From a virus: a stretch of 38,767 nucleotides of DNA. Within the stretch, counting starts at the first letter, position 1. Each line of letters begins with the position of its first letter. Shown in pieces: positions 9,292 through 27,146 of this stretch. The position numbers and the translations under genes are program-made. Location: the IMG/VR virus record IMGVR_UViG_3300032242_001263, positions 1-38,767 of that record. One strand, 5' to 3'. The notes beneath the pieces are model-generated. The model searched no databases. It saw nothing but the letters and a program-made list of their open reading frames with translations, and was not told the origin of the DNA.

Positions 9292-11307
9292 TCAGTAAGA
9301 CGGATACCACTTCGTAGTACCTGGATCATAAGTCATTGTGAGAGCTCTTGAAACTGTAGCTACTGAAGCGAGCGCGATATTTCCAGCCGTCGTCGTAGTG
9401 AATAAACCTGTAGGAATGAGGGTAATCGACCCACCGTTAGTTGAAATTGGAGAAGGAGCCGTGATGGTAGCGATTGCTGTCGTTCCCGAGATAAAGACGA
9501 TTGGATTTACTGGTGCGATAGTCGTAGCTGACGCGATAGTAGGAGCGCCAGAAACCGTACCTGTGGCGATAATGCCGTTAGCTCCTAGCCTTACTATGGC
9601 TACGCCACCCTGATTTTGCCACTGTTGAAGATCACCGCTAGGTAGCGATACTGCTGCACCGCCTGACGTGTAAGTATCAGACAGAGCGTTTGTTACCGTG
9701 AATTGAGTTGCAGAGGCTGAGGCTATTGTGGCGTTAGTGAGGTTAAATCCAGCGCCAGCCGTGCCTGTGGGGTTTCCTGTTGAAAGTACGCCAGTAATAG
9801 TTACGGTCTGACCTGCAGCCATATAAATAGTGTTAGACGCCGTATAAGTAATAGTCGTACCGTTAGCCGTAGCAGCTGTGATTGTGCCTACGGTAGCGCT
9901 CGCTTTGACTGCAAGTGGAGTCTGATTGGCACCGACAGTAGTTATGACGACTGGCCCTGCGTTATTGACGTTATTTGTATTTGAGCCAGGAGTGATTGTT
10001 GCTCCAGTTAAAGACGAATTTCGTAATGATCCACTGTTAATCGTAAAATTATTAGCATATACAATTCCATTTTGATTTACTGAAGCCTGAACGACTCCAG
10101 TAGAGTTTTGCCATTCTTGCAGTGGAGCATTCTGATTTGCAATTCCTTTGGCAACGATAGGCACTGTGGTAAACGTGTTCGCCACGGCAGAAATTGAAGG
10201 AGAGTTATAGGCGTTTCCAAATACCGTAGCAGTTGCAGACGCTACGAATGTGGCTGCTGCGTTATAGACCGTGTAAGCGTAAGAACCTGATGAGCCTGAA
10301 ATTGAAGTGACGACAGCCGTGGCGTTAAAAGACGCTGGAGTGAACCCAGTAAAAGTTACTGTTTGACCTAAAGCGAGGACTAAATTTGCATTGTTACCTG
10401 TATAAGTGGCGACTGTTGTTGAAGCAGCAGTCGCAGCAGTCCAGTTAAAATATGCGCTTGCAGAGACAACGCTCGTTATATTTCCAGAGTAAATCTGACC
10501 TGCAGCATTAACGCCTGAGAGGACTGTGCCAGCTGAGGACTGATTCTGAATAAGGTTAGCCGTTTGACCTGCAGCGCCTTTATTTGTAAGACCTACCGTA
10601 GTCGTAGCAGCTGGCGCGATTGTGTTAGCGCTTGTAAAAGTATTTGTAGTGGCTAGCTCAGGTACTACGGTGGTATCTACGATCAGATTAGAGGCTGAGG
10701 TCGTAAGTCCAGTACCGATATTGAGAGCTACCGTCTGTGTGCCTGAATTGTAAGTAATAGGAGCTGTAGCAGCGACTACGCCTGTGGCTCCAGTAGGGCC
10801 TGTGGCTCCTGTTGCACCTGTCGCGCCTGTGGCTCCTTGTATTCCCTGGGGAATACCAAAATTAAATACGGCTGCGCTAGTAGATCCTGAATTGCTAACC
10901 GTCGCGCTTGAGCCTGCTCCGAGCGTCGTCGTAGAGCCGACTGAGATAGTAGCTGCAGAGCCATTTGCTCCTGTGGCACCTGTGGCACCTGTAGCGCCAG
11001 TAGATCCTGTCGCGCCCTGTGGGATAGTGAAATTAAATACAGCTGCTGAAGTCGTGCCAGAATTTGTTACCGTGGCTGAAGTGCCAGGATTGCTTGTGGT
11101 AGTTGAACCTACGGCGATAGTAGCTGCTGAACCGTTAGCGCCTGTCTGCCCTGTCTGCCCTGTCTGCCCTGTAGCTCCAGTAGCACCTGTCGCACCCTGA
11201 GCACCTTGAGGCCCTTGAGCTCCTAGCTGGCTAACCGTTATCGAGGGCTGTTGATTAGTGACGATTACGTTTTGGACAGCCTGGGTGACTATGACGTTAT
11301 CTGTCAC
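9292..11307 (-). CDS. Collagen-like fibre protein
   Basis: 671 aa. GTG start overlaps the previous stop (GTGA). Three Gly-X-Y tracts (about residues 29-60, 100-122 and 158-180; GATGATGATGQTGQTGQTG type) alternate with two near-identical modules containing NGSAATI-VGSTTT and TSAAVFNF-IPQG. The rest is a Thr/Ala/Val-rich beta structure. Collagen-like triple helices are common in phage fibres. Its place between terminase and portal, away from the tail genes, makes a head fibre as likely as a tail fibre. The Gly-X-Y DNA contains short tandem repeats that may change length. Confidence 0.8.
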   Translation of the reverse strand: MTDNVIVTQAVQNVIVTNQQPSITVSQLGAQGPQGAQGATGATGATGQTGQTGQTGANGSAATIAVGSTTTSNPGTSATVTNSGTTSAAVFNFTIPQGATGSTGATGATGATGANGSAATISVGSTTTLGAGSSATVSNSGSTSAAVFNFGIPQGIQGATGATGATGATGPTGATGVVAATAPITYNSGTQTVALNIGTGLTTSASNLIVDTTVVPELATTNTFTSANTIAPAATTTVGLTNKGAAGQTANLIQNQSSAGTVLSGVNAAGQIYSGNITSVVSASAYFNWTAATAASTTVATYTGNNANLVLALGQTVTFTGFTPASFNATAVVTSISGSSGSYAYTVYNAAATFVASATATVFGNAYNSPSISAVANTFTTVPIVAKGIANQNAPLQEWQNSTGVVQASVNQNGIVYANNFTINSGSLRNSSLTGATITPGSNTNNVNNAGPVVITTVGANQTPLAVKASATVGTITAATANGTTITYTASNTIYMAAGQTVTITGVLSTGNPTGTAGAGFNLTNATIASASATQFTVTNALSDTYTSGGAAVSLPSGDLQQWQNQGGVAIVRLGANGIIATGTVSGAPTIASATTIAPVNPIVFISGTTAIATITAPSPISTNGGSITLIPTGLFTTTTAGNIALASVATVSRALTMTYDPGTTKWYPSY

Positions 11308-11645
11308 GATACTCTCGACTGTGCAATAGTGATTAGACCGTCTGACCAGTCGTAAGCGACACCTGAAGCTGAGGTCGCCTTAATTCCGTAATAGTAAGTG
11401 CCGACTGGGATAGCTGCTGTCTGAGTACCCGTGACGCGATAGGTAGTAATGCCAGAAGCAGGCGTAGTGAGCGTAATGCCAGAGCCGATTGCAAGTCCGA
11501 GTACGCTTGAATTGTCCACCTGATTACGGATTTGTAGAGATACCGTGTAGCCAGTCGTGTTAATTGCTGCGCCTGTGCTGTCTTGCCAGGTAGTCGTAAA
11601 AATCCAGTCTATGCCCTGATTTACTATGGGGTTATATTGCGCCAC
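11304..11645 (-). CDS. Small beta-sandwich structural protein (fibre-associated)
   Basis: 113 aa. GTG start 6 bp after AGGAGG; it begins one frame over from the terminase stop. The sequence WIFTTTWQDSTGAAINTTGY, YTVSLQIRNQ, GTYYYGIKAT and VAYDWSDGLITI resembles small Ig-like baseplate or fibre-attachment proteins found beside phage fibre genes. It is translationally coupled to the collagen-like gene, so it may be its attachment partner or chaperone. No enzymatic motif. Confidence 0.6.
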   Translation of the reverse strand: MAQYNPIVNQGIDWIFTTTWQDSTGAAINTTGYTVSLQIRNQVDNSSVLGLAIGSGITLTTPASGITTYRVTGTQTAAIPVGTYYYGIKATSASGVAYDWSDGLITIAQSRVS

Positions 11646-13012
11646 TAGACACCTCCTGGGTTAATGATAGCGCTTTGACATTTAGGGCAGACTGACGTTC
11701 CCTTTGGTGATGGCATTCTGCAATTAGGGCAGAAGTCCACTTTATGCGAGAGATAGCGCATAGCTGGAGAAGCTACGGATAGCTCAGTAATAGCCCAGAC
11801 TAGAGCGTCCATTCTGTCAGGAGAACTGCCAGATTCAGGCGTCCAGCTCACCATCTGATCCTCAAGCTCGTTAAATCCTCCTACGTGATGGACTTTGCCC
11901 TGTTCATAAAGAGCCGATACTGGCTCAGCTCTTACCTGCTTACCTCGTGAAGCTGTAACGAGCTTGATAGGCACCGTGTTATCCACGTGACGAATAACTA
12001 AACCGACCATATCTCCACCGTTATTTTTTTCTGCCACGATTCGATTCGCTTTGTATTGGTGATAGAGCTCGACAGCTCTTCTGGCCCAGCCGTCAGGAGA
12101 AGCTCGTAAAGTGCCGTCGTGGAGGACGTAATACTGTCCGTCCATAGAGACACCAGCGACTACTATTCCTGTCTCGTCTGAGTCCTCTCCAGAGGTCACT
12201 GCAGGGTCAATAGCGACGCATATCCTGGTCAGGTTAGGAGCTTCATCTACTCTGGCGTCGTCGATCATCTTTCTTGTCCATAATGCGCCCTCGATATCCT
12301 CGAGAAGCTCGCCGTACAGCTCCTGGCGTCCTAGCCGTGTGCCGTTATAGCGTAGCTGTAGCTCTACGAGAGCTTGAGGAGCGAGGTTAGCTGCGTTATC
12401 AAAGGTAGAGCCTCTCACGACGCGTACAGAGCCGTCAGAGCGTCCTACAAGGTTTCGCACGAGAGCTACAGGCTTAGGCGTCGTCGTAACTACTGTGCGT
12501 GGGTGGTCTCCTAAACGCAGGCCAAATTGAAGCTGATCCCACGTGTCTGAGTATCTCCAGGAGGAAAGCTCATCACACCAGGCGCCGTGAAATTGTGGGC
12601 CACGCAGACGGTTAGGCTCGTCAGCTGAAAAAAGTCGAATGAGTGATCCGTTAGTGAGCTTGATATGCCCATAGGTACGGTTATAGTCCTCGAGGACGCC
12701 GTACTCTCTCAAGATACCGATAATGCCTGAATTACCCTCAGCGCAGACGTCTCTTACGTCACCAAAGGTAGGAGCAATAATCGCCCAGCGCGTATCGTTA
12801 TTTGTAGCTGCTTCCCAGGCTAACCATTCGGCAGCCATACGAGTCTTGCCAGCGCCACGGCCTGCAAGATAAAGCCAGGTAGACCAGTCGCCTTCATCTG
12901 GAAGCTGCTCAGTCCGAGCTAGGGTCGCTTCCCACTCTGCTCTCCGTATCGCTGTGCTCTCGTACAATTTTGATAATCTGTCGAGCTCTTTCGCGTAAAA
13001 GGTCTCCGTCAT
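11645..13012 (-). CDS. terL: Terminase large subunit
   Basis: 455 aa. Walker A is AGRGAGKTR (50-58), Walker B GAWCDE (D147, E148), coupling motif VTTTPKP (175-181). The nuclease acidic residues are in AIDPAVTSG (D269), ENNGGD and DRMDALVWA. The ATPase drives packaging and the nuclease cuts the concatemer. The C-terminus (428-445, CPNC...CPKC) adds a zinc ribbon not usual in this family. The ATG follows GGAGGTG by about 7 bases, so the 104-bp overlap with the small subunit is real. Confidence 0.96.
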   Translation of the reverse strand: MTETFYAKELDRLSKLYESTAIRRAEWEATLARTEQLPDEGDWSTWLYLAGRGAGKTRMAAEWLAWEAATNNDTRWAIIAPTFGDVRDVCAEGNSGIIGILREYGVLEDYNRTYGHIKLTNGSLIRLFSADEPNRLRGPQFHGAWCDELSSWRYSDTWDQLQFGLRLGDHPRTVVTTTPKPVALVRNLVGRSDGSVRVVRGSTFDNAANLAPQALVELQLRYNGTRLGRQELYGELLEDIEGALWTRKMIDDARVDEAPNLTRICVAIDPAVTSGEDSDETGIVVAGVSMDGQYYVLHDGTLRASPDGWARRAVELYHQYKANRIVAEKNNGGDMVGLVIRHVDNTVPIKLVTASRGKQVRAEPVSALYEQGKVHHVGGFNELEDQMVSWTPESGSSPDRMDALVWAITELSVASPAMRYLSHKVDFCPNCRMPSPKGTSVCPKCQSAIINPGGV

Positions 13013-13403
13013 AGGTAGTCACCTCCACTTTAGACTCTTTCGGTGCGTATAAACCTAGTAGCGCTGCCTCCTCTTTCAGAAGCGCGAGAAGGTTAGGGAA
13101 AGCCTGTAAGTCCCCTGCCTCTACTTTGGGCCATAAAAGCCCTACAAGGTGCTCTAAGCGTCGTAGGTGAAGAGCTCGATACTCATTAACCGACTCCATA
13201 GGCGTACGCTCTGTAGCCCTTAGCCAGGCGTCTCTAGCTCCTGAGTGATCGGCGTAACCGAGCTGATTTGCGATTTGCTCAAAGGTTTTGCCCTCTAGCC
13301 GTAGCTGTACTACCTCGTGCTCACGCTGGAGGACTGACAGGTCTTTCTTGATTTTTTTAACGCGTTTGGGAGTTACCGCTACAGAATTGGTAATCTCAGA
13401 CAT
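12909..13403 (-). CDS. terS: Terminase small subunit
   Basis: 164 aa. A Lys-rich N-terminus, then a helix-turn-helix segment (KTFEQIANQLGYADHSGARDAW, in pieces; about 39-60) and an amphipathic C-terminal oligomerisation region (RALHLRRLEHLVGLLWPKVE). This is the usual layout of TerS, which recognises phage DNA and loads TerL. It is the first gene of the late unit and overlaps terL by 104 bp, much longer than the 4-bp overlaps elsewhere. Start ATG has only a weak AGG nearby. Confidence 0.85.
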   Translation of the reverse strand: MSEITNSVAVTPKRVKKIKKDLSVLQREHEVVQLRLEGKTFEQIANQLGYADHSGARDAWLRATERTPMESVNEYRALHLRRLEHLVGLLWPKVEAGDLQAFPNLLALLKEEAALLGLYAPKESKVEVTTYDGDLLRERARQIIKIVREHSDTESRVGSDPSSD

Positions 13404-13504
13404 AGCCTAACTGTACTGTAATCGTTACTACTGGTCTAACCTAGAAAATATGATTAGATTTACTGAGCGACGGTTTATTTTTTGGGGAAGAGATAAGTCG
13501 TCGT
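13404..13504 (-). promoter_or_regulatory. Probable late promoter region with GTAAN3TTAC palindrome
   Basis: A 100-bp gap between the terminator and terS. It contains the palindrome GTAATCGTTAC (13418-13428). On the minus strand this runs into TTACAGT (a possible -10 TACAGT) only 11 bases before the terS ATG, which would give a nearly leaderless message. No good -35 is seen. The whole late unit (about 25 kb around the join) must be transcribed from here or from read-through. Confidence 0.4.
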
Positions 13505-13547
13505 GCAAAACCCCATCTATCATTAAAAGGTAGGTGGGGTTTTTTGC
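13505..13547. terminator. Intrinsic terminator
   Basis: GCAAAACCCCATCTATC (13505-13521) pairs with GGTAGGTGGGGTTTTTTGC (13529-13547): about 15 pairs, a 7-base loop and a T-run on both sides, so it can work in both directions. It contains the last codons and stop (TAA at 13523-13525, in the loop) of the 64-aa gene. It separates the methyltransferase unit from the late unit. Confidence 0.85.
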
Positions 13548-13717
13548 ATAGCTTCTAACCTAGCGTCGAGAAGATCATCTATGCTGCTTTCGAGTATCTG
13601 GCGTTTTCTCCAGTCCATACGATTTCCAAAAGTGTCGGTTTTTAATTGCGTGTACAGATTAGCAATAGCCTCATCTAGCTCAGCTATCGAGACTTCCTCT
13701 GTGACTACTACCGACAT
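13523..13717 (-). CDS. Hypothetical 64-aa helical protein
   Basis: Begins MSVVVTEEVSIAELDEAIANL, followed by charged helices (RKRQILESSIDDLLDARLEAM). Ends KTPPTF inside the terminator stem. No strong ribosome site. Last gene of the SSB-methyltransferase unit, 19 bp after the Dam-like gene. No known family recognised. Confidence 0.6.
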   Translation of the reverse strand: MSVVVTEEVSIAELDEAIANLYTQLKTDTFGNRMDWRKRQILESSIDDLLDARLEAMQKTPPTF

Positions 13718-13736
13718 AAGTGGAGTTTAGTCTTGA

Positions 13737-14201
13737 TTACTCTAAGCCTGCTCGATTCCTCATAATGATTACAGCTGACGGAAAAGGTGCAGAGTTAGGC
13801 TGATTGCCAAATTTCAGCCGTCCTCGGATAAATCGCACTTCGTGATCTATACAGTAATCCCACCACCAGGCAGTATCTGTACGAGCTGGGACTAAGCAAA
13901 CGATTACCCCCCCTCGCTTACTTTCTAGGTCTGCTTTCTTGACCCATTCTTTAATCGCTCTACCGTACGGTGGATTTAGCCAGATAGTCTTTCCAGCGGC
14001 GTCCTCCGTCCAATTACGGACTAAAGCGTCTTGACGGTTTTCGTCTGGGTGATCTGGGCCGTACCATTCTGAGCAGAGAGCAGAGGATTCGAGAGCTGCT
14101 GCGTCTAAACCAAAATCAAACTCCGTGTGCAATTTTTCGTAAAAATCTCGAGGTGTCGTCCACGTATGGTCTATAGAAAGAAAAGCAGCCTTAAAATTCA
14201 T
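13737..14201 (-). CDS. DNA N6-adenine methyltransferase (phage Dam type)
   Basis: 154 aa, the usual size of the phage Dam family. WTTPRDFYEKL near residue 14, FGLDAAA (30-36) as the SAM-binding strand, and catalytic NPPYG (76-80), followed by RAIKEWVKK and a late FGNQPNSAPFPSAVIIM strand. It methylates adenine in DNA; the site cannot be read from sequence. ATG overlaps the previous stop (TAATG), so it is coupled to the cytosine-type enzyme upstream. Confidence 0.9.
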   Translation of the reverse strand: MNFKAAFLSIDHTWTTPRDFYEKLHTEFDFGLDAAALESSALCSEWYGPDHPDENRQDALVRNWTEDAAGKTIWLNPPYGRAIKEWVKKADLESKRGGVIVCLVPARTDTAWWWDYCIDHEVRFIRGRLKFGNQPNSAPFPSAVIIMRNRAGLE

Positions 14202-14839
14202 TAAATATTTTCACCCTCGAGAGTGTTCATAATTTCCTCGCCTAACGCATAAGGGACTCGTGATCTATCTTTGGCACCCTTGAGACCCTGAGTACCTGTT
14301 TTGGATCCTCTAGGAGCTGCTTCGTGACAGGGCATTCCATTCTTACACGGAGTGCGAGGTGTCCAATTAGGCACCGTTCCCCATAAATCAGTCGGCTTCA
14401 TTCGTGTATCGCCATAGGTGCAATATGTCACCGTGCGACGCTCATAGCCCTCGACTACTGGCAATTTACGGAGCATTCCGCGAGGATTTTCCATTAACCA
14501 GCCTTTTGTCGGTTTTAGATTCGTTATTAGTTTGAGAGTGTGCGCCACCAATAATTGAGAAATCCGTGCGCCTTCTGTTTTTGGAATATAAGCCCCCTTT
14601 CCTCCTCCCCAGTGATGGCCCATAGAGGCCACGCTGAAAGCCGTACAAGGAGGGGAAGCCCAAATAAAGTCTGGCTGACCGTATTTCTCTAAAAGATACT
14701 CTGCCGATAGGTTAAAGACGTCTACGTTTTCCGTAGCCTCAAAATACGTATCTAGCTCAAAAGTAATAACCGTGTGTCCAGCGTCTACGAATGCTTGAGT
14801 AGAACTACCTGTCCCAGCGAAAAAATCAAATATAAGCAT
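14201..14839 (-). CDS. Compact C5-cytosine methyltransferase-like protein
   Basis: 212 aa. SAM motif DFFAGTGSS (5-13), catalytic SPPC (62-65; Cys65) and ENPRG (117-121) follow the order of C5-methyltransferases. The protein is about half of normal length and no clear target-recognition region or motif X is seen, so it belongs to a compact phage branch. The C-terminus has CKNGMPCHEAAPRGSKTG. ATG directly follows the HTH gene stop. DNA cytosine methylation is the likely role; a base-modifying relative cannot be excluded. Confidence 0.8.
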   Translation of the reverse strand: MLIFDFFAGTGSSTQAFVDAGHTVITFELDTYFEATENVDVFNLSAEYLLEKYGQPDFIWASPPCTAFSVASMGHHWGGGKGAYIPKTEGARISQLLVAHTLKLITNLKPTKGWLMENPRGMLRKLPVVEGYERRTVTYCTYGDTRMKPTDLWGTVPNWTPRTPCKNGMPCHEAAPRGSKTGTQGLKGAKDRSRVPYALGEEIMNTLEGENI

Positions 14840-15022
14840 TTAACGCGACGCTTTTTTGGCTGCGTAATCTTTGACCTCTTCAGCCACGTAGTAGACGTTT
14901 CTACCCTGGCGCTTTTTCCACTTAATCCTGCCTCGGTGCTGGAGCTGTCGCAGGTTATTAAGCGTGACCCCTAAATACTGTGTGACCTGAGTACAGTCCC
15001 ACCATTCCTGATTCTCTACCAC
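14840..15022 (-). CDS. Small winged-HTH protein (excisionase/MerR-like)
   Basis: 60 aa, GTG start. WWDCTQVTQYLGVTLNNL, then RIKWKKRQGRNVYYVAEEV is the classic HTH_17/excisionase pattern: first helix, recognition helix, and a basic wing. No integrase is present, so it is more likely a small regulator than a true excisionase. Overlaps the SSB stop by 7 bp. Confidence 0.8.
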   Translation of the reverse strand: MVENQEWWDCTQVTQYLGVTLNNLRQLQHRGRIKWKKRQGRNVYYVAEEVKDYAAKKASR

Positions 15023-15369
15023 CCTGGAGTATCCTCGCTCTGAGTCGCTCCAGAAGCCTTAGTAACCTTAATAGTGATAGCTACGTCTGTAGCTGCAATT
15101 TCGTTAGAGGTTTTCTCTAAGCCGTCTTTGGTGTATTTAGAGACACCGAATTTACCTGTGACCGTCACGGAGTCGCCTTTGCGTAGCTCACGAGCGACAG
15201 CTGGGGCCTTATTTCCCCAGACCGTAACCTTGAACCAGATTGTCTCGCCCTCACCCTTTGCTTTGCTCCAGGGAGTGTGAGCTAGTGAGAATTGGCAGAG
15301 CTCGTATTCGCCTACCTGCTTAATCTCTGGGTCTGTGCCGAGATTGCCTTGAATAATGATCTGATTCAT
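15016..15369 (-). CDS. ssb: Single-stranded DNA-binding protein
   Basis: 117 aa with an OB-fold: NQIIIQGNLGTDPEIK, FSLAHTPW, ETIWFKVTVWG, ARELRKGDSVTVTGKF. The C-terminus is short and ends SEDTPGW instead of the acidic DDDIPF tip that recruits host repair proteins, so partner binding may differ. AGGAGG-type site (GGAGGCAAA) before ATG, coupled to the HNH gene (ATGA). Confidence 0.92.
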   Translation of the reverse strand: MNQIIIQGNLGTDPEIKQVGEYELCQFSLAHTPWSKAKGEGETIWFKVTVWGNKAPAVARELRKGDSVTVTGKFGVSKYTKDGLEKTSNEIAATDVAITIKVTKASGATQSEDTPGW

Positions 15370-15719
15370 TTTGCCTCCGTAATTATTGTGATATTTCCAT
15401 CTTCGAGTAATAGTACGACTGAGCCGTCAGCTCTCACTAACGGTACTTCAGTCGCGTTTTCCCAGCTATGCACCATATAGCCCAGCTTTTGAGCTACTGC
15501 AGGCTTCAAGTGAATACTGTCGGTTTTTAGATTGTGACAGCCGTGGTGAACCCAGACAAGGTTAGACACCGAGTCCTCTCCCCCACGAGATTTTAATTTA
15601 CGGTGGTGAAGAGCCATAGTCTCCTCGGCTGGACAGTCGCAGAATTCACAATATCCAGCAGCTCGGGCCTTAACGAGCTCTACGACGTTTTTGTCTATCA
15701 CTCGTCCTCCTCTTGCCAC
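15366..15719 (-). CDS. HNH endonuclease
   Basis: 117 aa, GTG start. AGYCEFCDCP gives a zinc knuckle, then MALHHRKLKSRGG with the HH of the active site, NLVWVHHGCHN completing the ββα-metal core, followed by a C-terminal beta tail. Stand-alone HNH proteins in phages are either free homing-type nucleases or packaging helpers; being in the SSB-methyltransferase unit rather than beside terminase favours the former or a host-DNA attack role. Confidence 0.85.
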   Translation of the reverse strand: MARGGRVIDKNVVELVKARAAGYCEFCDCPAEETMALHHRKLKSRGGEDSVSNLVWVHHGCHNLKTDSIHLKPAVAQKLGYMVHSWENATEVPLVRADGSVVLLLEDGNITIITEAK

Positions 15720-15784
15720 TCTTTAGGATCTACAGAAGGGACAGTCACCGTGAGTGGCTCTAGTACAGGTGTCCAGATACTCAT
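15698..15784 (-). CDS. Possible 28-aa coupled peptide
   Basis: ATG at 15784 with AAGGGA upstream; begins MSIWTPVLEPL, ends KEWQEEDE. It fills the gap between the transglycosylase stop and the HNH start and overlaps the HNH start by 22 bp, a coupling pattern seen for the other small genes. Too short to judge by composition. Confidence 0.4.
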   Translation of the reverse strand: MSIWTPVLEPLTVTVPSVDPKEWQEEDE

Positions 15785-15806
15785 AGCTTCTATCCCTTCT
15801 GTCGAT

Positions 15807-16244
15807 TTAATACCAGTAATGTTTTTTCCAGAATGACCAGGCTTTGCAGGCTGATCCGTACCGTACTGTAATGTATCGTAGCCCAGCTTTCACCTGGATT
15901 AACGGATTTTTAGGTTTTAATGGGTAGTGATAATTACCCCAGGTTTGGGGTAAAAATTGAGCTATACCGAAAGCTCCAGAGCTCTTATTCAGCGCTTTGG
16001 GATTCCAGTGGCTTTCGTGCGTCCAGATTTGGTCTAAGCAGGCGTACTGACGATTTACGTCTTTCCACTGTTTAGAGATAAGCACTTTGCTATAAATCCT
16101 CGGTGACATTTGGATATGGACTAAGGATTTCATAGGCGCCATAGCTGCCTGAGCGCTTGTTACGTGCAAGAGTCCCACCGTAAAGGCTGTTAAGAGGACT
16201 CTGGCCTTAAAAACTATGCTGAGACCTTTACTCCTGATCCGCAT
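15807..16244 (-). CDS. Secreted lytic transglycosylase-like protein
   Basis: 145 aa. A signal peptide: basic MRIRSKGLSIVFKAR, hydrophobic VLLTAFTVGLLHV, cleavage after TSAQA (about residue 33). The mature part is SLT-like: CLDQIWTHESHWNPKALN with the catalytic Glu in THESHWNP, SSGAFGIAQFLPQTW, then GLRYITVRYGSACKAWSFW. It would cut cell-wall glycan outside the membrane. It is not in the lysis cassette but in the SSB-methyltransferase unit, so it may loosen the wall early, or aid lysis after export by the host Sec path. Confidence 0.85.
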   Translation of the reverse strand: MRIRSKGLSIVFKARVLLTAFTVGLLHVTSAQAAMAPMKSLVHIQMSPRIYSKVLISKQWKDVNRQYACLDQIWTHESHWNPKALNKSSGAFGIAQFLPQTWGNYHYPLKPKNPLIQVKAGLRYITVRYGSACKAWSFWKKHYWY

Positions 16245-16327
16245 ACTCCGCAGGCGTTACCAGCGTAAATCCATTCGCCACACGAGCAGCGACTTATTTT
16301 CTTATCTTCGATTTCCTGGCTATTCAT
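16214..16327 (-). CDS. 37-aa zinc-ribbon peptide
   Basis: ATG at 16327 preceded by AGGAGG at ideal spacing. Begins MNSQEIEDKKISRCSCGEW and has CSC...CGVCG, a compact one-ribbon zinc finger. The 3' end overlaps the transglycosylase start by 31 bp. It is the first gene after the TTGGCA-17-TATAAT promoter. Function unknown. Confidence 0.7.
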   Translation of the reverse strand: MNSQEIEDKKISRCSCGEWIYAGNACGVCGSGVKVSA

Positions 16328-16366
16328 TTTCGTCCTCCTAAGTAAGAGATAGCGAATAGTGGCTAA

Positions 16367-16395
16367 ATTATATCGAGAAAGGTTGAGCCTGCCAA
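16367..16395 (-). promoter_or_regulatory. Near-consensus sigma-A promoter
   Basis: On the minus strand TTGGCA (16395-16390), 17-bp spacer, TATAAT (16372-16367). A start near 16360 gives a 33-base leader with AGGAGG before the zinc-ribbon gene. It should drive 16327 to 13523. The -35 touches the right arm of the 11-bp inverted repeat 16381-16421. Confidence 0.8.
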
Positions 16396-16479
16396 AGGTC
16401 TACGCAGTGACAGGCTCAACCGTGAGCTAGGGTCAGGAAACCCATAGCTCGTATTAGGCTCAAAGCAGGTAGAGCCTAA
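16381..16479 (-). other. Three tandem hairpins (terminator, operator or RNA element)
   Basis: Hairpin 1: GGTTGAGCCTG / CAGGCTCAACC, 11 perfect pairs, arms 16381-16391 and 16411-16421. Hairpin 2: GAGCTAGGGT / ACCC-A-TAGCTC, arms 16424-16433 and 16440-16450. Hairpin 3: TTAGGCTC / GAGCCTAA, arms 16454-16461 and 16472-16479, overlapping the stop of the 76-aa gene. Hairpins 1 and 3 share AGGCTCAA, so their arms could also pair with each other. On the minus strand hairpin 1 is followed by TTTCTC, a weak terminator tail. They separate two transcription units. Confidence 0.7.
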
Positions 16480-16706
16480 AGATAGCGTCCAAATAAGGAC
16501 ATATAGCGTCTGCTAATTTGGATCACTTTGGGGTGAGGTGTTTTCCAGTCCAGAGCTGGGTATTTATCCAAAAGTCTCAAGCAGATACTAATTGGCACCT
16601 GCTTAGGTCTCGGCGCATATCCACCAGCTTCTAGGCCAAATTCTTTAGCGATATCACGGCGAACTTCCTCGTGATAATCACGAATAGGATCATCTATAAA
16701 AATCAC
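16476..16706 (-). CDS. Hypothetical 76-aa protein
   Basis: The GTG at 16706 is chosen because AGGAGG lies 8 bases ahead; an upstream GTG at 16715 would sit on that site. Starts MIFIDDPIRDYHEEVRRDIAKE, then PRPKQVPISICLRLLDKYPALDW and a basic C-terminus. Two charged helices, no Cys pair. No family recognised. Last gene of its unit; the stop lies in hairpin 3. Confidence 0.6.
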   Translation of the reverse strand: MIFIDDPIRDYHEEVRRDIAKEFGLEAGGYAPRPKQVPISICLRLLDKYPALDWKTPHPKVIQISRRYMSLFGRYL

Positions 16707-16708
16707 GG

Positions 16709-16909
16709 CTACCACCTCCTACGCGTATTTGTAGAGATATAACCTTCTGGAAATACCACCTGGGGAATTTTTGGGTAATGCTTCTGTGCTTCTACCTCGG
16801 CAGCTTCAGCCAGATATTGACAGATACACTCGTCCACGTTTCTATCGTGTCGAAATTTTAGGCATATCTCCGCAGCTTCAGCTACGTTTAATTGACTCAT
16901 TTCGCTCAT
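16709..16909 (-). CDS. Hypothetical 66-aa protein
   Basis: Starts MSEMSQLNVAEAAEICLKF, has CICQYLAEAAEVEAQKHY, ends NTRRRW. Its ATG overlaps the stop of the 19-aa membrane peptide (ATGA). Helical, with three cysteines. Its last codons form the AGGAGG of the next gene. Confidence 0.6.
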   Translation of the reverse strand: MSEMSQLNVAEAAEICLKFRHDRNVDECICQYLAEAAEVEAQKHYPKIPQVVFPEGYISTNTRRRW

Positions 16910-16965
16910 TTCTTACCCCAAACGTAGCAAAAGCAAATACCAGCTATAAGTAAAAACCAATTCAC
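16906..16965 (-). CDS. 19-aa membrane peptide, coupled at both ends
   Basis: GTG at 16965 overlaps the stop of the 88-aa gene (GTGA) and its own TGA overlaps the next ATG (ATGA). The peptide MNWFLLIAGICFCYVWGKK is one hydrophobic helix with a Lys-Lys end, a normal membrane anchor. Two precise stop/start overlaps argue that it is translated. Role unknown. Confidence 0.55.
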   Translation of the reverse strand: MNWFLLIAGICFCYVWGKK

Positions 16966-17228
16966 CCTATAACCCTTTCGATAGCTTGAACGGTCGGACA
17001 AGGCCACATAACGTCATTTATCATTTTGACTGGGTTACAGGCTATGCAGATAAAAGACTCACAATTAGGGTTAGCGCAGTGTTTTAGAGGTGTGTGTAAA
17101 TCCAGCACGGCTAAAAGAGCTTTATCGTTTCTGGATTTTAGCTGTTCAACGTTATAGGTACGCTCACCGTGGGTAATGAGGATAAATTCTTTCTGAGCGA
17201 TTCTGGCTTTCAATTCGTCGTGCTTCAT
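16962..17228 (-). CDS. 88-aa zinc-binding hypothetical protein
   Basis: MKHDELKARIAQKEFIL then FILITHGERTYNVEQL, and a CANPNCESFICIACNP cluster near residues 51-66 that should bind zinc. ATG overlaps the stop of the ribbon-helix-helix gene. No known family recognised; the short actinophage zinc proteins are usually of unknown function. Confidence 0.65.
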   Translation of the reverse strand: MKHDELKARIAQKEFILITHGERTYNVEQLKSRNDKALLAVLDLHTPLKHCANPNCESFICIACNPVKMINDVMWPCPTVQAIERVIG

Positions 17229-17398
17229 TCTTGATCCCCTAGCCAGTCAGCATAAAGACGAATTAGCTCGTTAATCTTGATATTTAGGCGAGCTGCTTCG
17301 TTATGGATTGCCTGCTTCTGGACACTTGAAAGACGCACCTGGATAGTTTCCTGCTTGTCGGCAGAATACTTCTCGCGCCACTTATTCGCTTCTGACAC
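17225..17398 (-). CDS. Ribbon-helix-helix (Arc/CopG-like) DNA-binding protein
   Basis: 57 aa, read from the minus strand (GTG 17398 to TGA 17225). The stretch ETIQVRLSSVQKQAIHN is a beta strand then helix, followed by AARLNIKINELIRLYADWLG, the second helix with the turn typical of the fold. It overlaps both neighbours (16 bp and 4 bp). Such small dimers repress phage promoters; it is a good candidate for binding the palindromes in the nearby non-coding gaps, but that is inference. Confidence 0.65.
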   Translation of the reverse strand: MSEANKWREKYSADKQETIQVRLSSVQKQAIHNEAARLNIKINELIRLYADWLGDQE

Positions 17399-17519
17399 TC
17401 TGGTACTCCTTATCGTCGGTATAGGCTAAATCAAAGTGCTCTGTACAGTGATTTACGGATCCTGTTTTTTCGTAATGAATGGTGAGGACTGAATTACCGT
17501 CGCAGAAGGAGCAGGTCAT
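17382..17519 (-). CDS. 45-aa zinc-finger-like protein
   Basis: ATG at 17519 overlaps the stop of the membrane-peptide gene (ATGA), which decides this start over an upstream TTG. MTCSFCDGNSVLTIHYEKT and NHCTEHFDLAY give CxxC...HCxxH, a likely zinc site. Function unknown. Confidence 0.6.
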   Translation of the reverse strand: MTCSFCDGNSVLTIHYEKTGSVNHCTEHFDLAYTDDKEYQSVRSE

Positions 17520-17659
17520 AATCCCACGCACTTTTGCATAGTCCCCCAGCAATAACCATCTCCTACCCACCAAAGGTGATTAACGACATAAAATAAACCG
17601 TACAGCGCTATTAGAGCTGCAATAGATACGACGACTTTGCCTCTACGTGTAAGTCTCAT
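17516..17659 (-). CDS. 47-aa single-pass membrane protein
   Basis: ATG 17659 overlaps the upstream stop (ATGA). Basic MRLTRRGK, then VVVSIAALIALYGLFYVV as one transmembrane helix, then a Trp/Cys-rich outer part (HLWWVGDGYCWGTMQKCVGL) with two cysteines that could form a disulfide outside the membrane. Could be a superinfection-exclusion or other host-membrane factor; no evidence beyond topology. Confidence 0.6.
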   Translation of the reverse strand: MRLTRRGKVVVSIAALIALYGLFYVVNHLWWVGDGYCWGTMQKCVGL

Positions 17660-17892
17660 TTTGCTACCTCAATTCTTGAAAAACATTTCATACGTTTTGC
17701 GCCTTCTGGTGTCTCCAGAATGATTACGCGCTCCCAGTCAGCCATACCGTGATCTACGAATTTAACGAAATCCTGAGCTGCGTCTAAAGCTGTGTCGTAA
17801 TAATTTTTCCAGACGATACCGCCATCTTCGTAGACGGTTATTGAATGAAGTCCTGCCTGTGCTATTACCTTTGTGCTAGCTTTCATTTTCAT
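17656..17892 (-). CDS. Hypothetical 78-aa protein
   Basis: MKMKASTKVIAQAGLHSITVYEDGG, beta-rich first half, then a helix DAAQDFVKFVDHG and a final strand. GGAAGAAAA precedes the ATG. Looks like a small alpha/beta protein; no match recognised. Confidence 0.6.
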   Translation of the reverse strand: MKMKASTKVIAQAGLHSITVYEDGGIVWKNYYDTALDAAQDFVKFVDHGMADWERVIILETPEGAKRMKCFSRIEVAK

Positions 17893-18068
17893 TTTTCTTC
17901 CTTAACCTTAACTACGGCTGTTACTGAATACTCGTGACGAGCACGGCACCAAGTACCAGGAATATTGACGCGGATACGGCCGTCGCGTAATTGAGTAATT
18001 ACACCTTGACGACCTTCCCAAATAGTGCGAACGAAAATTACTCGGTCTCCTACTTTTAATTCATTCAT
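17889..18068 (-). CDS. Small KOW-like beta-barrel protein
   Basis: 59 aa from ATG 18068 (chosen over GTG 18077, which is 3 bases from the AAGG site). MNELKVGDRVIFVRTIWEGRQGVITQL, then GRIRVNIPG. The VGDRVIF...G-G-V pattern is like KOW/SH3-type small barrels that bind RNA or protein. First gene of its unit, 140 bases after the TTGACA promoter. Confidence 0.6.
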   Translation of the reverse strand: MNELKVGDRVIFVRTIWEGRQGVITQLRDGRIRVNIPGTWCRARHEYSVTAVVKVKEEK

Positions 18069-18077
18069 TTTATGCAC

Positions 18078-18208
18078 CAGCCTTTTGATTACGGTTATGG
18101 ATAATGTCGCGCTCAGAAGGGTTAATTACAATTTCCTTCCTTTTTCGAGTTTTACCTGTGACATTTCATTTCCTGCTTTCCGAGGGCTTTCCTGTCCCTA
18201 CGTAGATA
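18078..18208 (-). other. Long leader between promoter and the KOW-like gene
   Basis: About 130 bases with no good ATG-started gene on either strand. A frame ending at the next start has AAAGGAAGGAA followed by ATTGTAATTAACCC and would need an ATT start (about 20 codons). Purine-rich runs occur. I see no clear hairpin. Confidence 0.3.
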
Positions 18209-18236
18209 ACTGTAACGGTTACACCCCTAGTGTCAA
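18209..18236 (-). promoter_or_regulatory. TTGACA promoter with embedded palindromic operator
   Basis: On the minus strand TTGACA (18236-18231), 16-bp spacer, TACAGT (18214-18209). The perfect 13-bp palindrome TGTAACGGTTACA (18211-18223) covers the spacer end and the -10, where a bound dimer would block polymerase. It probably drives 18068 to 16476. Confidence 0.7.
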
Positions 18237-18260
18237 GTATCTATAGAAAGATTTTTTAGA

Positions 18261-18632
18261 TTATTTTTGACCTATAAAGATATTAACGCCAGGCTCACCG
18301 TAGCTTTTAGTAGCTAGGATAGAAACCACCTGAGCGTCGTCACGGTAGACAATTCCAGTCAAAGCGTCTAACACGCCACGGATTAGTTTATCGAGGTCAG
18401 GTGGGACGGTAGGCATATCGCGCTTAATTGTCCGTGGCTTAAGCATAAAAAAGTCCAGCTGGATAGCTACTGGGCCTTCCATAAATTTAACCTCGTGCAA
18501 TTTGGCAGCTAAAGCTACCGTCGAACGCCATACCGCCAGCGCTGATCCTTGAGAATGAACCATACGTCCATTTCCGACGTGCTTCATAGACCCCTGGGGT
18601 ACAGGTAAGCCATCTACGCGGAATGAAATCAC
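18261..18632 (-). CDS. rusA: RusA-family Holliday junction resolvase
   Basis: 123 aa, usual RusA length. PVPQGSMKH near residue 10, PPDLDKLIRGVLDALTG with D79 and D81, and VYRDDAQV with D98/D99 are the metal-binding acidic residues. It cuts four-way junctions formed in phage recombination and packaging. GTG start without a clear ribosome site. Last gene of the replication unit, before the TTGACA promoter. Confidence 0.92.
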   Translation of the reverse strand: MISFRVDGLPVPQGSMKHVGNGRMVHSQGSALAVWRSTVALAAKLHEVKFMEGPVAIQLDFFMLKPRTIKRDMPTVPPDLDKLIRGVLDALTGIVYRDDAQVVSILATKSYGEPGVNIFIGQK

Positions 18633-18649
18633 CGCGTAAGTATTACAGA

Positions 18650-18832
18650 TTAAAGTACGAGTGTCACTACGTCTGCTATGACCTCGTGCTTTGTAGCTAG
18701 ACCGTCGGTAATATAGAAATCGTAAGCGCCGTGATTATCTGGCCCTGAGACGTCTTTTACTACCCAGGCTTGACCGTGGATATAAACTTGATCGCCGTAC
18801 TGGACTTTTGCTGGTGAGACTACTGTTGTCAT
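18650..18832 (-). CDS. Hypothetical 60-aa protein
   Basis: MTTVVSPAKVQYGDQVYIHGQ, then AWVVKDVSGPDN and HEVIADVVTLVL. GGAGGAATA before ATG. The beta pattern with YGDQVYI resembles small SH3-like barrels, as in the KOW-like neighbour at 17889. No known function. Confidence 0.6.
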   Translation of the reverse strand: MTTVVSPAKVQYGDQVYIHGQAWVVKDVSGPDNHGAYDFYITDGLATKHEVIADVVTLVL

Positions 18833-18849
18833 TATTCCTCCGTCTGGGT

Positions 18850-18886
18850 GTAATGATTACTGTAATGATACACGAATTACGTAATT
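18850..18886. promoter_or_regulatory. Cluster of palindromes upstream of the 60-aa gene
   Basis: GTAATGATTAC (18850-18860, perfect), TGTAATGATACA overlapping next to it, and AATTACGTAATT (18875-18886, perfect 12 bp). All lie in the 53-bp gap after the initiator gene. On the minus strand ATTACAGTAATC gives a TACAGT -10 that would leave a 20-base leader with GGAGG. Likely an operator-promoter. Confidence 0.5.
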
Positions 18887-19710
18887 TAAGTGCCTTGAGT
18901 CACGCGTATTAGCTTTTTCAATTCATCTGGCATAGGTACCGCGTTAGCTTTCGCTGCCTCTCGCTCTAAATCGAGCCGTGAAGCCTTCTCTCGAGCGATT
19001 TCGGCTGCTTCCCTAGCCTTAGCCAGCTCCTGGGCTTTAATGTCCTCTGGGGATAGTTTTCGGGCAGGTAGAGGGTCGTCTAACCAGCGCTCCTGATTAA
19101 GCCAGGTACTAGCGTGAGCCGTGAAGCTAGGATCTCGATTAGGGTCGTCCCGATAGCGCTCAGCTGCAGATATCAGCTCCTCTGCGCTCGCTTTCTTTCG
19201 AGCTTTAACCCAGGCGGCCGTAGCTGCTCCTTTGGCTGTCTTTCGAGGATAGGTTTTCCAGAAAGCGTCGAATGAATATATCTTTTTATTATCTTCCTCT
19301 TCTTCTTTATCTTCCTCTTCATATATAGGCATTTGCTCAGCATTTGCTTCCTGAAAATCTAGCATTTGCTTAGCATTTGCTAGTCTTTTGCTTGCACCGA
19401 TTAAACCATTTGCTGACAATTTGCTGGACTTAGCGCGAATTTTGTCCAGATCACGCTCTATTCTGGATTGAGTCCAGGTGTCACCGTCAATAATAAAAAA
19501 CTCAGCTAACACTGGCTCGACCTCTTTCCAGCGTTCAGCTGAAAGCCTAGCTACGTGAGCTAGACGTCCATTTGAGTTATCAAGGGGTTTAGATCTTTGC
19601 CAGTAATTCATTAGCAAAAGCAGGTATGCACCGTGCTCCTCTGTCGTTAGGTGCGCTGTGTCGGCTAAGTAATCCGAGGTGTAAAGCTGCATATACGGTA
19701 ATGAGGTCAT
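18886..19710 (-). CDS. Replication initiator-like protein (DUF1376 N-domain)
   Basis: ATG at 19710 is chosen: it overlaps the methyltransferase stop (ATGA) and has GGAG 6 bases ahead. 274 aa. N-terminus MTSLPYMQLYTSDYLADTAHLT with EEHGAYLLLLMNYW is the DUF1376/YdaU winged domain. An acidic linker of Glu/Asp follows. Then FDAFWKTYPRKTAKGAA and STWLNQERWLDD is the C-terminal motif shared by phage replication proteins that load helicase. No helicase or polymerase gene follows, so it should recruit host DnaB. Confidence 0.8.
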   Translation of the reverse strand: MTSLPYMQLYTSDYLADTAHLTTEEHGAYLLLLMNYWQRSKPLDNSNGRLAHVARLSAERWKEVEPVLAEFFIIDGDTWTQSRIERDLDKIRAKSSKLSANGLIGASKRLANAKQMLDFQEANAEQMPIYEEEDKEEEEDNKKIYSFDAFWKTYPRKTAKGAATAAWVKARKKASAEELISAAERYRDDPNRDPSFTAHASTWLNQERWLDDPLPARKLSPEDIKAQELAKAREAAEIAREKASRLDLEREAAKANAVPMPDELKKLIRVTQGT

Positions 19711-21116
19711 TTTTGCTCCAATAATCTCGAGATAATCCATTCGACTACAGGTACGGCTACGGCGTTACCCATTTGTTTATATCGGTGACTATCAGCCTGT
19801 CCCTCTGTCCAGTTATCAGGAAAACCCTGCAGGCGTTCACACTCGATTGGGGTAAGACGGCGCACGGTAGACCCAGTAGAGACTCCGTGTCCACTGACTC
19901 TATCTAAAGTAAACATTGGATCATTAAGCTCGCCATAACCTTTACCCTGCGGCCCAGAGGTGTCTGCTCTACCGATAATCGTCCCCTGAATGGGATAAGT
20001 AGAAGCCACCATAGAGACATTATTTCCTCCTGTCCCCATACGAGAAGTAAGAGTATTCATAGTCTCGCCTTGAACCCTAGCGCCGTCGTGATAGTGAGGG
20101 TGAAAGACTGTAACCACCGTGGCACGTGACTCGCCTGTGTTATCCATAACGTTTAACGTAGGAGATACGTCGCGCTCGGCCCAAACCTCGGCAGGTAATG
20201 AACCGTCCTCAGCTCTAGCTCCTGACCGTATTACTTTGACGAATGGCTGAACTATTGCTATTCCACCTTGATTTGCTGAAGGATTTAATGCTGCTGTATC
20301 TATAGTTTTTGATAAAAATACTTCTCTGCACCCCGAAACTGGATTAGCGGATTTCATAGAATTACTTGCAAGAGAGTCAAAAGAATAAGCTACAGAATTA
20401 CTAATAACTAAATCCGTAGCGTCTTTGTAATCCCTAGCTTTTAAGACGCCAGCAACCTGATCTAATTCGTAATCTCCGAAATCTCGCTGGCGCGCGAGAG
20501 AGCTTCCATTAGTGGAGGTGGAAGAGTCTTGCCCCTTCTGCTCGCTCTGTTGATTATCCCCTGCGCTGCTTTCGAGGAGATCAAGTATTTGTGCAGGTGT
20601 TCGCCCTGAGTCTCCAAGACGTCCGACAATAAACACTCTACGGCGTCTTTGGGCGACTCCGAAATATTGCGCGTCGAGAACTCTGTAAGCGACCCCATAC
20701 CCGAGCTCAGCCAGCGACCCGAGGACGGTACCCATATCGCGTCCTCCGTTAGAAGACAAGAGACCTGGGACGTTTTCGAGGATAAACCATTTCGCTTTCG
20801 TTTCTTTGAGGAGTCGGTGGATTTCCCAGAAGAGTCCCGACCGTGCTCCTTCAAGTCCTGCTCGCTTTCCAGCGACTGAGAGATCCTGACAGGGAAAACC
20901 TCCGACGATAATTCCGTCTGAGTTAAATCCGAGCTCTGTGAGTTGATTTCCTGTGACATTACAGACGTCCTCCAATATTTCAGTATCTGGAAATTGTTTT
21001 GCTAGGACTTTCCTAGCGTGTTTATCTATATCTACTGCTGCTACGACTTCTACTCCTGACCGTGATAAAGCTAGGTCAAAACCTCCTACGCCTGCAAATA
21101 ATGAAACCGCCTTCAT
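19707..21116 (-). CDS. dcm: C5-cytosine DNA methyltransferase (Dcm type)
   Basis: 469 aa. Motif I FAGVGGFDLAL (7-17), IV GGFPCQDLS with catalytic Cys76, VI ENVPG (114-118), VIII QRRRRVFIVG (156-165), a variable target-recognition region, and X QMGNAVAVPV near 450. Residues ~175-215 (SSAGDNQQSEQKGQDSSTST) are low complexity. This is exactly where a second frame encodes an ordered-looking protein (20462-20959). It protects phage DNA from restriction. Coupled to WhiB (ATGA). Confidence 0.95.
   Translation of the reverse strand: MKAVSLFAGVGGFDLALSRSGVEVVAAVDIDKHARKVLAKQFPDTEILEDVCNVTGNQLTELGFNSDGIIVGGFPCQDLSVAGKRAGLEGARSGLFWEIHRLLKETKAKWFILENVPGLLSSNGGRDMGTVLGSLAELGYGVAYRVLDAQYFGVAQRRRRVFIVGRLGDSGRTPAQILDLLESSAGDNQQSEQKGQDSSTSTNGSSLARQRDFGDYELDQVAGVLKARDYKDATDLVISNSVAYSFDSLASNSMKSANPVSGCREVFLSKTIDTAALNPSANQGGIAIVQPFVKVIRSGARAEDGSLPAEVWAERDVSPTLNVMDNTGESRATVVTVFHPHYHDGARVQGETMNTLTSRMGTGGNNVSMVASTYPIQGTIIGRADTSGPQGKGYGELNDPMFTLDRVSGHGVSTGSTVRRLTPIECERLQGFPDNWTEGQADSHRYKQMGNAVAVPVVEWIISRLLEQK
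20462..20959 (-). CDS. Overprinted 165-aa ORF inside the cytosine methyltransferase
   Basis: Same strand, shifted frame, ATG at 20959. The C-terminal part (LSSGMGSLTEFSTRNISESPKDA then CLLSDVLETQGEHLHKYLIS and KAAQGIINRASRRGKTLPPP) resembles, from memory, a protein often annotated in phages beside or inside Dcm genes, with a conserved SPKAA-GIL-RA--RGK-LP core. Its ordered region lies over the low-complexity part of the methyltransferase. The first 60 residues are Ser-rich. I judge the second half likely real; whether it is expressed is unknown. Confidence 0.5.
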   Translation of the reverse strand: MSQEINSQSSDLTQTELSSEVFPVRISQSLESEQDLKEHGRDSSGKSTDSSKKRKRNGLSSKTSQVSCLLTEDAIWVPSSGRWLSSGMGSLTEFSTRNISESPKDAVECLLSDVLETQGEHLHKYLISSKAAQGIINRASRRGKTLPPPLMEALSRASEISEITN

Positions 21117-21445
21117 CTTTCCTCCAAAGCCTCGTGGATCATAGATTTAGTAATGCCCTGCTCTTCTAGGTCTTTATAGACCGTGAGCTTTATTGACTCT
21201 TTACCGCCTTTAGTGAAAGCTCGGCGCTCGTCTGTTTCCATACCGCCCCACCAGCCGTAGTTTTCGTGACCAGCTGCATACGCTAAGCAGTCTTTCCAGA
21301 TAGGGCAGCTAGCGCAGAGAGCGCGTAAAGGTTTGATATAAATTTCTGGATCGGGGTAATGAATTTCCTCGATACGGTAAAAAACCTCAACCTCTACTCC
21401 AGCGCAGGCTGCCTTTCCCCAATTTACTTCCGTGTACTCGGGCAA
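21113..21445 (-). CDS. WhiB-family iron-sulfur regulator
   Basis: 110 aa. Cys14, then CASCPIWKDC (C-x2-C-x5-C) complete the four ligands of a [4Fe-4S] cluster, followed by the WhiB turn GWWGGMETDERR. A basic C-terminus would bind DNA. TTG start is set by AGGAGA 7 bases ahead; no other start keeps the first Cys. Phage WhiB proteins can displace the host homologue from the primary sigma factor. It overlaps the nuclease gene by 22 bp. Confidence 0.92.
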   Translation of the reverse strand: MPEYTEVNWGKAACAGVEVEVFYRIEEIHYPDPEIYIKPLRALCASCPIWKDCLAYAAGHENYGWWGGMETDERRAFTKGGKESIKLTVYKDLEEQGITKSMIHEALEER

Positions 21446-22092
21446 CCCACTTCTCCTGACGCGTCGTAGTAATTACAGTAATTCGCGCAGAATACAGCGT
21501 CTTTTTCTGGAGCTGGTACCGACTCGCCAGATACGGCTAGAGCTTTTACCTCTGCTAACCAGGCTAAACCCTGTTGAGCCATTTCTGGGTCGTATGGCTC
21601 GCTATGGCTTTTGATTTGAGCCATTTCACCGTCACGAGGTACAGCGACAAGAGCTACATTTTCTACTTCATATCCATTCGCCGTGAGAAGGTAGCCGTAA
21701 ATCTGTACCTGCATTCTCTGTTGAGCACTAGGAAAATAACGCAGAGACTTTAGTTTTGTAGTTTTCCAGTCCACGATAGTTTTCTGGTCTTTGATATAGA
21801 GGTCTACGTGGCCCTTAAGGTCTCCAGCGACGAATTCTTCCTCTATAAGGAAATTGTCTCCGAATGGATCCTCTCGCTTGATAGCCTCCGCTACGCCAGC
21901 GTGGATAAACGTTCCCAAAATAGCTGCGAGAGATTCCGTGTCAGGGTTAGTCTCTGGCGTACCTACCAGCTGGTGATACACCTGGCGACGACAACCGCCT
22001 ATCTGGGAAGGCCCTATCTCCACCTGGGTAGAGCGATCACGAGAATTGTCGTAAGCCGTCAGCGACTTAGCGAGCAGGTTAGATAAGTCCAT
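21424..22092 (-). CDS. Cas4/RecB-like exonuclease with Fe-S cysteines
   Basis: 222 aa. GGCRR (Cys34), GTFIHAG (motif with His), GHVDLYI (D97), IVDWKTTK (D108, K110) and QVQIYGYLL form the PD-(D/E)XK core. C202, C206 and C217 with Cys34 complete a Cas4/AddB-type cluster. It should resect DNA ends and hand strands to the annealing protein at 23106. Coupled to the 89-aa gene (TAATG). Confidence 0.88.
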   Translation of the reverse strand: MDLSNLLAKSLTAYDNSRDRSTQVEIGPSQIGGCRRQVYHQLVGTPETNPDTESLAAILGTFIHAGVAEAIKREDPFGDNFLIEEEFVAGDLKGHVDLYIKDQKTIVDWKTTKLKSLRYFPSAQQRMQVQIYGYLLTANGYEVENVALVAVPRDGEMAQIKSHSEPYDPEMAQQGLAWLAEVKALAVSGESVPAPEKDAVFCANYCNYYDASGEVGCPSTRK

Positions 22093-22361
22093 TAGTGGTC
22101 TCCTAAAATCTGATCGCCAGGTAATCCCTTTGTAGCGATAATTACCGCTGCCGTTTTTGTGCGCTTAGAAGCTGCGTACCAGTCTGAAGAGATATCAGTC
22201 GGCGTCTCTAGGAAATCAAGCTCTCTAGCAATTCTATTGCGCCAGTAAGACTCGAAACGGTGAGCGATAATTTCATAGCTCAAGCCACCGTCAATTTCTG
22301 TAAAGAGAGCGTCGCCTGTAATAAAGGCTAAGACTTGATCGTGCATAGCAATTTGATTCAC
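22092..22361 (-). CDS. Hypothetical 89-aa protein
   Basis: GTG start overlapping the previous stop (GTGA). MNQIAMHDQVLAFITGD, then FESYWRNRIARELDFLE and a beta C-terminus (KTAAVIIATKG). Lies between the basic zinc peptide and the nuclease. No family recognised. Confidence 0.55.
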   Translation of the reverse strand: MNQIAMHDQVLAFITGDALFTEIDGGLSYEIIAHRFESYWRNRIARELDFLETPTDISSDWYAASKRTKTAAVIIATKGLPGDQILGDH

Positions 22362-22513
22362 TTTGTTTTCCTCACTATGTCTATGGCTACGAGAAAATCA
22401 AAACACGGCTCGTGTTTAGCTTTCTTTCGCTCGTCCCAGCTTTTACGGCATTGAGCGCAGACGAATTTTGTAAGTTTCTTTTCCATCTTTTTACGAACGC
22501 GCTTAAATTTCAT
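22358..22513 (-). CDS. 51-aa basic zinc peptide
   Basis: ATG 22513, TGA 22358, with ATGA and GTGA overlaps at the two ends. MKFKRVRKKMEKKLTKF then CAQCRKSW...HEPC; very basic N-terminus and a CxxC...C set. Could bind nucleic acid. Function unknown. Confidence 0.6.
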   Translation of the reverse strand: MKFKRVRKKMEKKLTKFVCAQCRKSWDERKKAKHEPCFDFLVAIDIVRKTK

Positions 22514-23723: not shown

Positions 23724-23764
23724 CTTTTGCCTCGTTTCTGTGGAGCTTCTATTAAGCTCGGTCA

Positions 23765-23815: not shown

Positions 23816-23848
23816 TGTCGAACCTGTAAGGAATGAGAGGATAGGACT

Positions 23849-24052: not shown

Positions 24053-24072
24053 ACCTACGCATTAAATAAAAA

Positions 24073-27053: not shown

Positions 27054-27146
27054 AGTAGGGGAGTCTATATCTAAACCAGAGGTAAAGGGTTACGACACGC
27101 TAAAGGATACTTTCATAAGCAGTATCGAAATCGTCAATATGGGTAT

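Follow-up and report, generated by a model that had tools for sequence, protein, structure and literature searches.

Promoters of actinobacteria are characterized by a conserved TANNNT -10 element and a weak -35. In many bacteria, clusters of hairpins lying less than 15 nt apart, mostly less than 20 nt from a stop codon (the criterion used was within 80 nt) and with no need of a poly-U tract, are reported to coincide with transcript ends; examples include Mycobacterium tuberculosis and Streptomyces (Gupta and Pal, 2021; PMC8355165). In gene e of phage T4, long transcripts have their Shine-Dalgarno sequence and AUG closed, and the late ones, which are made without the 5′ arm, escape (PMC3014915).

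The phage locus described here can be compared with each of these. Like T4 gene e, it concerns a peptidoglycan-cutting enzyme, with a Shine-Dalgarno sequence and start codon in an RNA helix and a promoter immediately upstream; unlike gene e, the helix is on a small upstream ORF overlapping the enzyme gene, and whereas the T4 late transcripts lack the 5′ arm, the predicted start in this phage places it at the very 5′ end. Like the cluster-hairpin terminators, which do not need poly-U, the locus has several hairpins less than 15 nt apart, starting less than 20 nt from a stop codon; it differs from them in being a phage element, known here from sequence, with the stop codon within the first hairpin and with a promoter fused to the array. 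The parts are of known kinds, and the variant is their arrangement, with a leader stem that starts where the mRNA itself is predicted to start; no description of such an arrangement was found in a non-exhaustive search of the literature.

The window (the whole stretch of DNA analyzed, a 38,767-base IMG/VR virus record) has all of its clear genes on the minus strand, and all positions in the locus refer to features on that strand. The minus-strand order is: stop codon of an upstream gene, three hairpins (H1, H2, H3), promoter, leader, small ORF, and SLT transglycosylase gene. The upstream gene (16476–16715, 79 aa) ends an operon containing replication genes (for a primosomal protein and a RusA-like protein); its TAG stop, at 16478–16476, is inside H1, and its product gave no match in PHROG and Pfam searches and no relative in a search of viral proteins. 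The small ORF (16214–16327, 37 aa) has a zinc-ribbon-like CxCG...CxxC pattern, with a structure prediction too weak to use (pLDDT 62), and overlaps by 31 nt the SLT gene (15807–16244, 145 aa, PF01464), which starts inside it and encodes a protein with a hydrophobic N-terminus. A hairpin followed by TTTT (13503–13547) is the probable end of the operon begun by the promoter in the 16360 region. This is one of the three strongest hairpins in the genome, the others being at 36493–36540 and 27139–27195, all in or beside intergenic gaps. A further strong hairpin, GATAGGGGGAGAGGGCTACGGCTCTCTCCCTTTATC, is found on the minus strand at about 783–818, directly before the Shine-Dalgarno sequence of a 105-aa zinc-finger-like gene (766–449), and the window also carries a phage-borne phosphoadenosine phosphosulfate reductase-like gene (24595–25407, phrog_424).

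No DNA relatives of the window were found in the phage collection, and relatives were collected via the SLT protein, first 19 loci and later 80; many of these loci have the same gene order as the window. The host is probably an actinobacterium, because the SLT protein has its best relatives in phages of Streptomyces, Gordonia, and Mycobacterium and because L156 and other relatives have a WhiB-like ORF, as read from their sequences; it is not certain, since terminase matches span a wider range of hosts. In Streptomyces phage Endor2 the SLT relative begins 1–2 nt past the preceding gene, leaving no room for a cassette of this kind.

Hairpins at a proposed operon boundary

An earlier, sequence-only reading of this DNA had listed hairpins of 11, 10, and 8 pairs, which were confirmed at 16381–16421 (H3), 16424–16450 (H2), and 16454–16479 (H1), separated by gaps of 3 nt (H1–H2) and 2 nt (H2–H3). 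H1 (UUAGGCUC/GAGCCUAA, 8 pairs) has a predicted energy of -10.7 kcal/mol (z -4.15) and H2 (GAGCUAUGGGU-UUCC-UGACCCUAGCUC, 10 pairs in the count of that reading) one of -15.0 kcal/mol (z -4.61). H3 (GGUUGAGCCUG...CAGGCUCAACC), the last before the promoter, reaches -24.0 kcal/mol (z -5.9), with 11 strict pairs, or 14 counting G-U on the minus strand. Folded as a whole, the 151-nt block scored z -6.3 as minus-strand RNA and z -4.5 as plus-strand RNA; none of the shuffles was as stable.

Conserved pairing in relatives, on which, along with transcript ends, the sequence-only reading had staked the element, was found: all three hairpins, with compensatory changes, are present in eight contigs, namely the window, L003–L005 (group A), and L006, L007, L010, and L012 (group B). 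H1 is identical in L003–L005 and is a different hairpin in L006–L012; its internal compensatory change (GGGG/CCCC to GGAG/CUCC) falls within coding sequence. H2 has the loop word UUCCUG in all eight contigs, with changes in both of its arms (GGGU/ACCC to GGAU/AUCC; U-A to U-G). The H3 stem is kept in both L003–L005 and L006–L012 with wholly different arms, in several unrelated sequences, that of L003–L005 being a hairpin with the arms GTGAGACCCGCCA. These compensatory changes come from visual inspection; H1 and H3 were misplaced in the automatic alignment (A4). Within group B, H3 has two quite different versions (L006 and L012 as against L007 and L010) between the same flanks in nearly identical contigs, looking as if the 5′ side and loop of the hairpin had been swapped.

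One-sided changes in the hairpins give G-U pairs on the minus strand, where on the plus strand they would be A-C, and the functional molecule is therefore likely to be the sense RNA. A comparison of sense and antisense hairpins over all loci was biased by the picking of the best sense hairpin, and was set aside. The earlier suggestion of a structured RNA thus holds in the sense of stems kept by compensatory change, with wobble pairs fitting the transcribed strand. Its suggestion that H1 and H3 share AGGCTCAA arms stands in part: the 8-mer occurs in both outer hairpins, with two of its eight bases in the loop of H1 rather than in an arm. None of the relatives L003–L012 has it in H3, and the proposed swapping of partners between H1 and H3 is not conserved, H3 of L003–L005 having different arms.

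The array is best read as a cluster-hairpin intrinsic terminator that lacks a U-tract and stands at an operon boundary. Its spacing is well inside the 15 nt used for clusters of at least two hairpins, and its position inside the 80 nt allowed after an operon's stop codon, which lies here within H1, with H3 starting about 55 nt farther on. It does not have the form of a canonical rho-independent terminator (the tail after H3, UUUCUCGA, contains no U-tract), and a terminator scan of the window did not list H1–H3. Of the “ordinary double terminator” proposed earlier, then, the terminator is the best-supported part, and “ordinary” and “double” do not survive: there is no U-tract, and there are three hairpins, starting in a stop codon. 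In many relatives the promoter and leader are present and no hairpin array is obvious, so the array is optional, and termination non-essential to the cassette.

Another possibility, which we regard as unlikely though worth keeping in view, is that the hairpins are not a terminator but a structured 3′ UTR or small RNA (a stability element or the remnant of a phage RNA). The place of H1–H2 is taken in many relatives by a three-way-junction RNA of about 75 nt, here called R1, with the consensus GAGCGUUAAAGCGG..CCGCUAAGGCUGGUCAUGAUGGC..GCCUAGCCAGACCUGCGCUC; in an alignment of 18 sequences (A3), 96.6% of cells are paired, and 16 of 21 pairs are changed on both sides (shuffled mean 9.0). Copies include L169:3743-3820, L163:3741-3818, L205:3742-3818, L237:2656-2740, and L245:4339-4433, among others. 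H1–H2 might be what is left of R1: in L163, L169, L173, L177, L186, L205, and others, R1 is found upstream of the last hairpin, after the stop codon or close to it, and L166 and L168 have a reduced P1-P2-P3 form from which the conserved core is missing. Against this, the R1 model found no match in the window (best E 1.5, filters off) or in L003–L012, and there is no sequence similarity between H1–H2 and P2–P3. Because of its absence from the window and L003–L012, R1 is not part of the finding for the window. The cluster-hairpin terminator is kept as the preferred reading of the array. Further phage contigs carry R1 as well; in L230, L234, and L239 it directly precedes a seemingly ordinary terminator. 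It was not found in three actinobacterial genomes, an uninformative result; one copy had no blastn match among named phages. The Rfam 15 covariance models gave no gathering-score match in the window, nor in ten relatives, R1 included.

The leader stem

The 5′ arm of the leader stem (CUAUUCG, 16353–16359) pairs with UGAAUAG at 16320–16326, which is bases 2–8 of the small ORF, including part of its start codon; the Shine-Dalgarno sequence AGGAGG (16334–16339) is in the loop or in an inner stem. In 43 of 56 leaders the first paired base is 6–8 nt after the -10, approximately where transcription would be expected to start, and in most loci the start predicted from the -10 falls 0–2 nt before the 5′ arm.

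Complementarity between leader and small ORF takes different forms in different relatives (CUAUUC with GAAUAG, GUCCAU with AUGGAU, GUCCA with UGGAC, UUAUCC with GGAUGA), and it persists with loops of 22–31 nt. In an alignment of 33 distinct leaders (A5), 85.5% of cells are paired, vs. 20–45% with the partner slid. At one pair, 22 of these leaders have C-G and 10 have U-A, with no mismatches; at another, 14 have A-U, nine G-U, and seven G-C. In codon 2, A changes to G only alongside a U-to-C change in the leader, in register, and this holds for all 32 rows that have letters at that place. Without guidance, RNAalifold arrives at the same stem, which is also the fold of most leaders, the Shine-Dalgarno sequence then being in an inner stem. 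The leader stem covaries, and it looks like a leader that closes a ribosome-binding site: the Shine-Dalgarno sequence and AUG are in a helix that covaries in relatives, with few well-supported independent switches.

The strength of the covariation has its bounds. Reconstruction on the SLT tree gives six occurrences of the C-G/U-A switch, two of them on well-supported branches, and for both this count and the loop-length survey the arms were registered on a motif chosen to fit the pairing. Column shuffles (55 of 500) did not separate the number of covarying leader pairs from chance. The G-C pair at the start codon is constant throughout, and about 14 of the 33 leaders fail to form the two outermost pairs. 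In the window alone, the leader helix ranks fifth among 57 gene starts, with a leader z of -0.58. It is also possible that recombination carries leader and gene start along as a unit.

It is therefore worth asking whether the pairing is only a by-product, leader and first codons each being conserved separately and their complementarity only apparent. The weak stem in the window, the small number of well-supported independent switches, and the motif-based anchoring would all be accommodated by this explanation; the tie between codon 2 and the leader in 32 of 32 rows, complementarity across loops of different lengths, and the unaided recovery of the stem by RNAalifold would not, and we consider it improbable. 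A leader closing the ribosome-binding site remains the preferred interpretation.

Two other candidates were abandoned. One was a pairing, seen by eye only, between the ACCUUUC loop of the last hairpin and the Shine-Dalgarno sequence downstream of it; it showed no covariation (loop ACCGUUC with Shine-Dalgarno GAAAGG). A search for the leader in host genomes returned 43 matches, in unrelated species and with no obvious SLT gene following, and these were taken as chance.

L024:1691-1730, L042, L062, L092, and about 40 similar loci belong to an unrelated phage SLT family, in which a leader, TTCGCTATCTCTAAAGGAGG, immediately follows a strong promoter. In these, a predicted pairing joins UCUCUA to UGGAGA at the start codon, in a sequence that is invariant, and the word CGCTATCTC after the -10 is shared with the window-type cassette.

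The promoter and its overlap with the hairpins

The TTGGCA-17-TATAAT promoter reported in the sequence-only reading is present on the minus strand, from 16395 to 16367, with 11 of 12 consensus bases: a -35-like TTGGCA (16390–16395) and, 17 nt after it, a TATAAT -10 box (16367–16372), from whose spacing a transcription start is predicted about 7 nt on, at 16360. The -35 had been described as touching a hairpin; the contact is real and goes further, TTGGCA lying inside the 3′ arm of H3. Among the 16 promoter-like sites in 10000–29000 this one ranks first, in a scan in which such sites overall were no commoner than in shuffles.

A TANA[AC]T box is at the expected place in 56 distinct leaders, two further leaders lacking it, while the best -35 match over the 56 loci averages 2.77 of 6 positions, vs. 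2.82 in shuffles; among relatives the -35 is kept, as TTGGCG, only in L003–L005. The -10 is thus the conserved part of the promoter and TTGGCA a trait of the window's own group, so that “near-consensus” is borne out across relatives for the -10 and not for the -35. In keeping its -10 with a -35 at chance level, the family resembles actinobacterial promoters in general; the window departs from them in having a good -35, and in having it inside a hairpin.

The overlap of the dyads with the -35, together with the 8-mer common to two of the window's hairpins, could suggest an operator array, in which a phage repressor bound to AGGCTCAA half-sites would control the promoter. Absence of the 8-mer from H3 of L003–L012 speaks against this proposal, also made in the sequence-only reading, and stems kept in different sequence by compensatory change, including G-U pairs, suit an RNA and not a DNA-binding site; we think it very improbable. 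About as improbable is a replication origin, hairpins near replication genes recalling the RNA-based prophage origins of mycobacteriophages (PMC7157519) and the upstream operon carrying primosomal protein and RusA-like genes, since no parABS-like gene was recognized among the scanned proteins, no skew switch centered at the hairpins was found, and the array is missing from many relatives that keep promoter and leader.

A possible switch for a cell-wall enzyme

The interpretation that we favor, with moderate confidence, is that the locus is a minus-strand operon boundary combining terminating hairpins, a new promoter, a start-closing leader, and coupling to the SLT gene. H1, H2, and H3 would close the upstream replication operon at its 3′ end, jointly terminating it without a U-tract. 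The -10 after H3 would then start a new transcript at about 16360, with the -35 optional, as conservation of the -10 suggests. The first bases of this transcript would fold onto the first codons of the small ORF, enclosing Shine-Dalgarno sequence and AUG in one hairpin, which may damp or gate initiation; SLT output would probably follow translation of the small ORF by coupling, to judge from their overlap. The effect would be to keep read-through transcripts from yielding a secreted peptidoglycan-cutting enzyme, and to make its expression from its own transcript low or gated.

A broader and much more tentative idea, which we hold to be doubtful at present, is that a single regulatory cassette for a secreted transglycosylase, made up of a 3′-end RNA module, a -10-only promoter, and a start-codon clamp, is spread through many, probably actinobacterial, phages. 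The 3′-end module would be the three-way-junction RNA in many of these phages and the tandem hairpins in the window's lineage, and the clamp would stay shut until opened, conceivably by the zinc-ribbon-like product or by a host factor. If this is so, the clamp predicted in the second, unrelated SLT family would make it a recurring device for such enzymes.

What began as a list of hairpins becomes a testable candidate switch for the expression of a cell-wall enzyme, in environmental phages about which little is known. The pairs of its leader stem change in concert, and the relatives also yielded a phage RNA, R1, that covaries strongly and is absent from Rfam.
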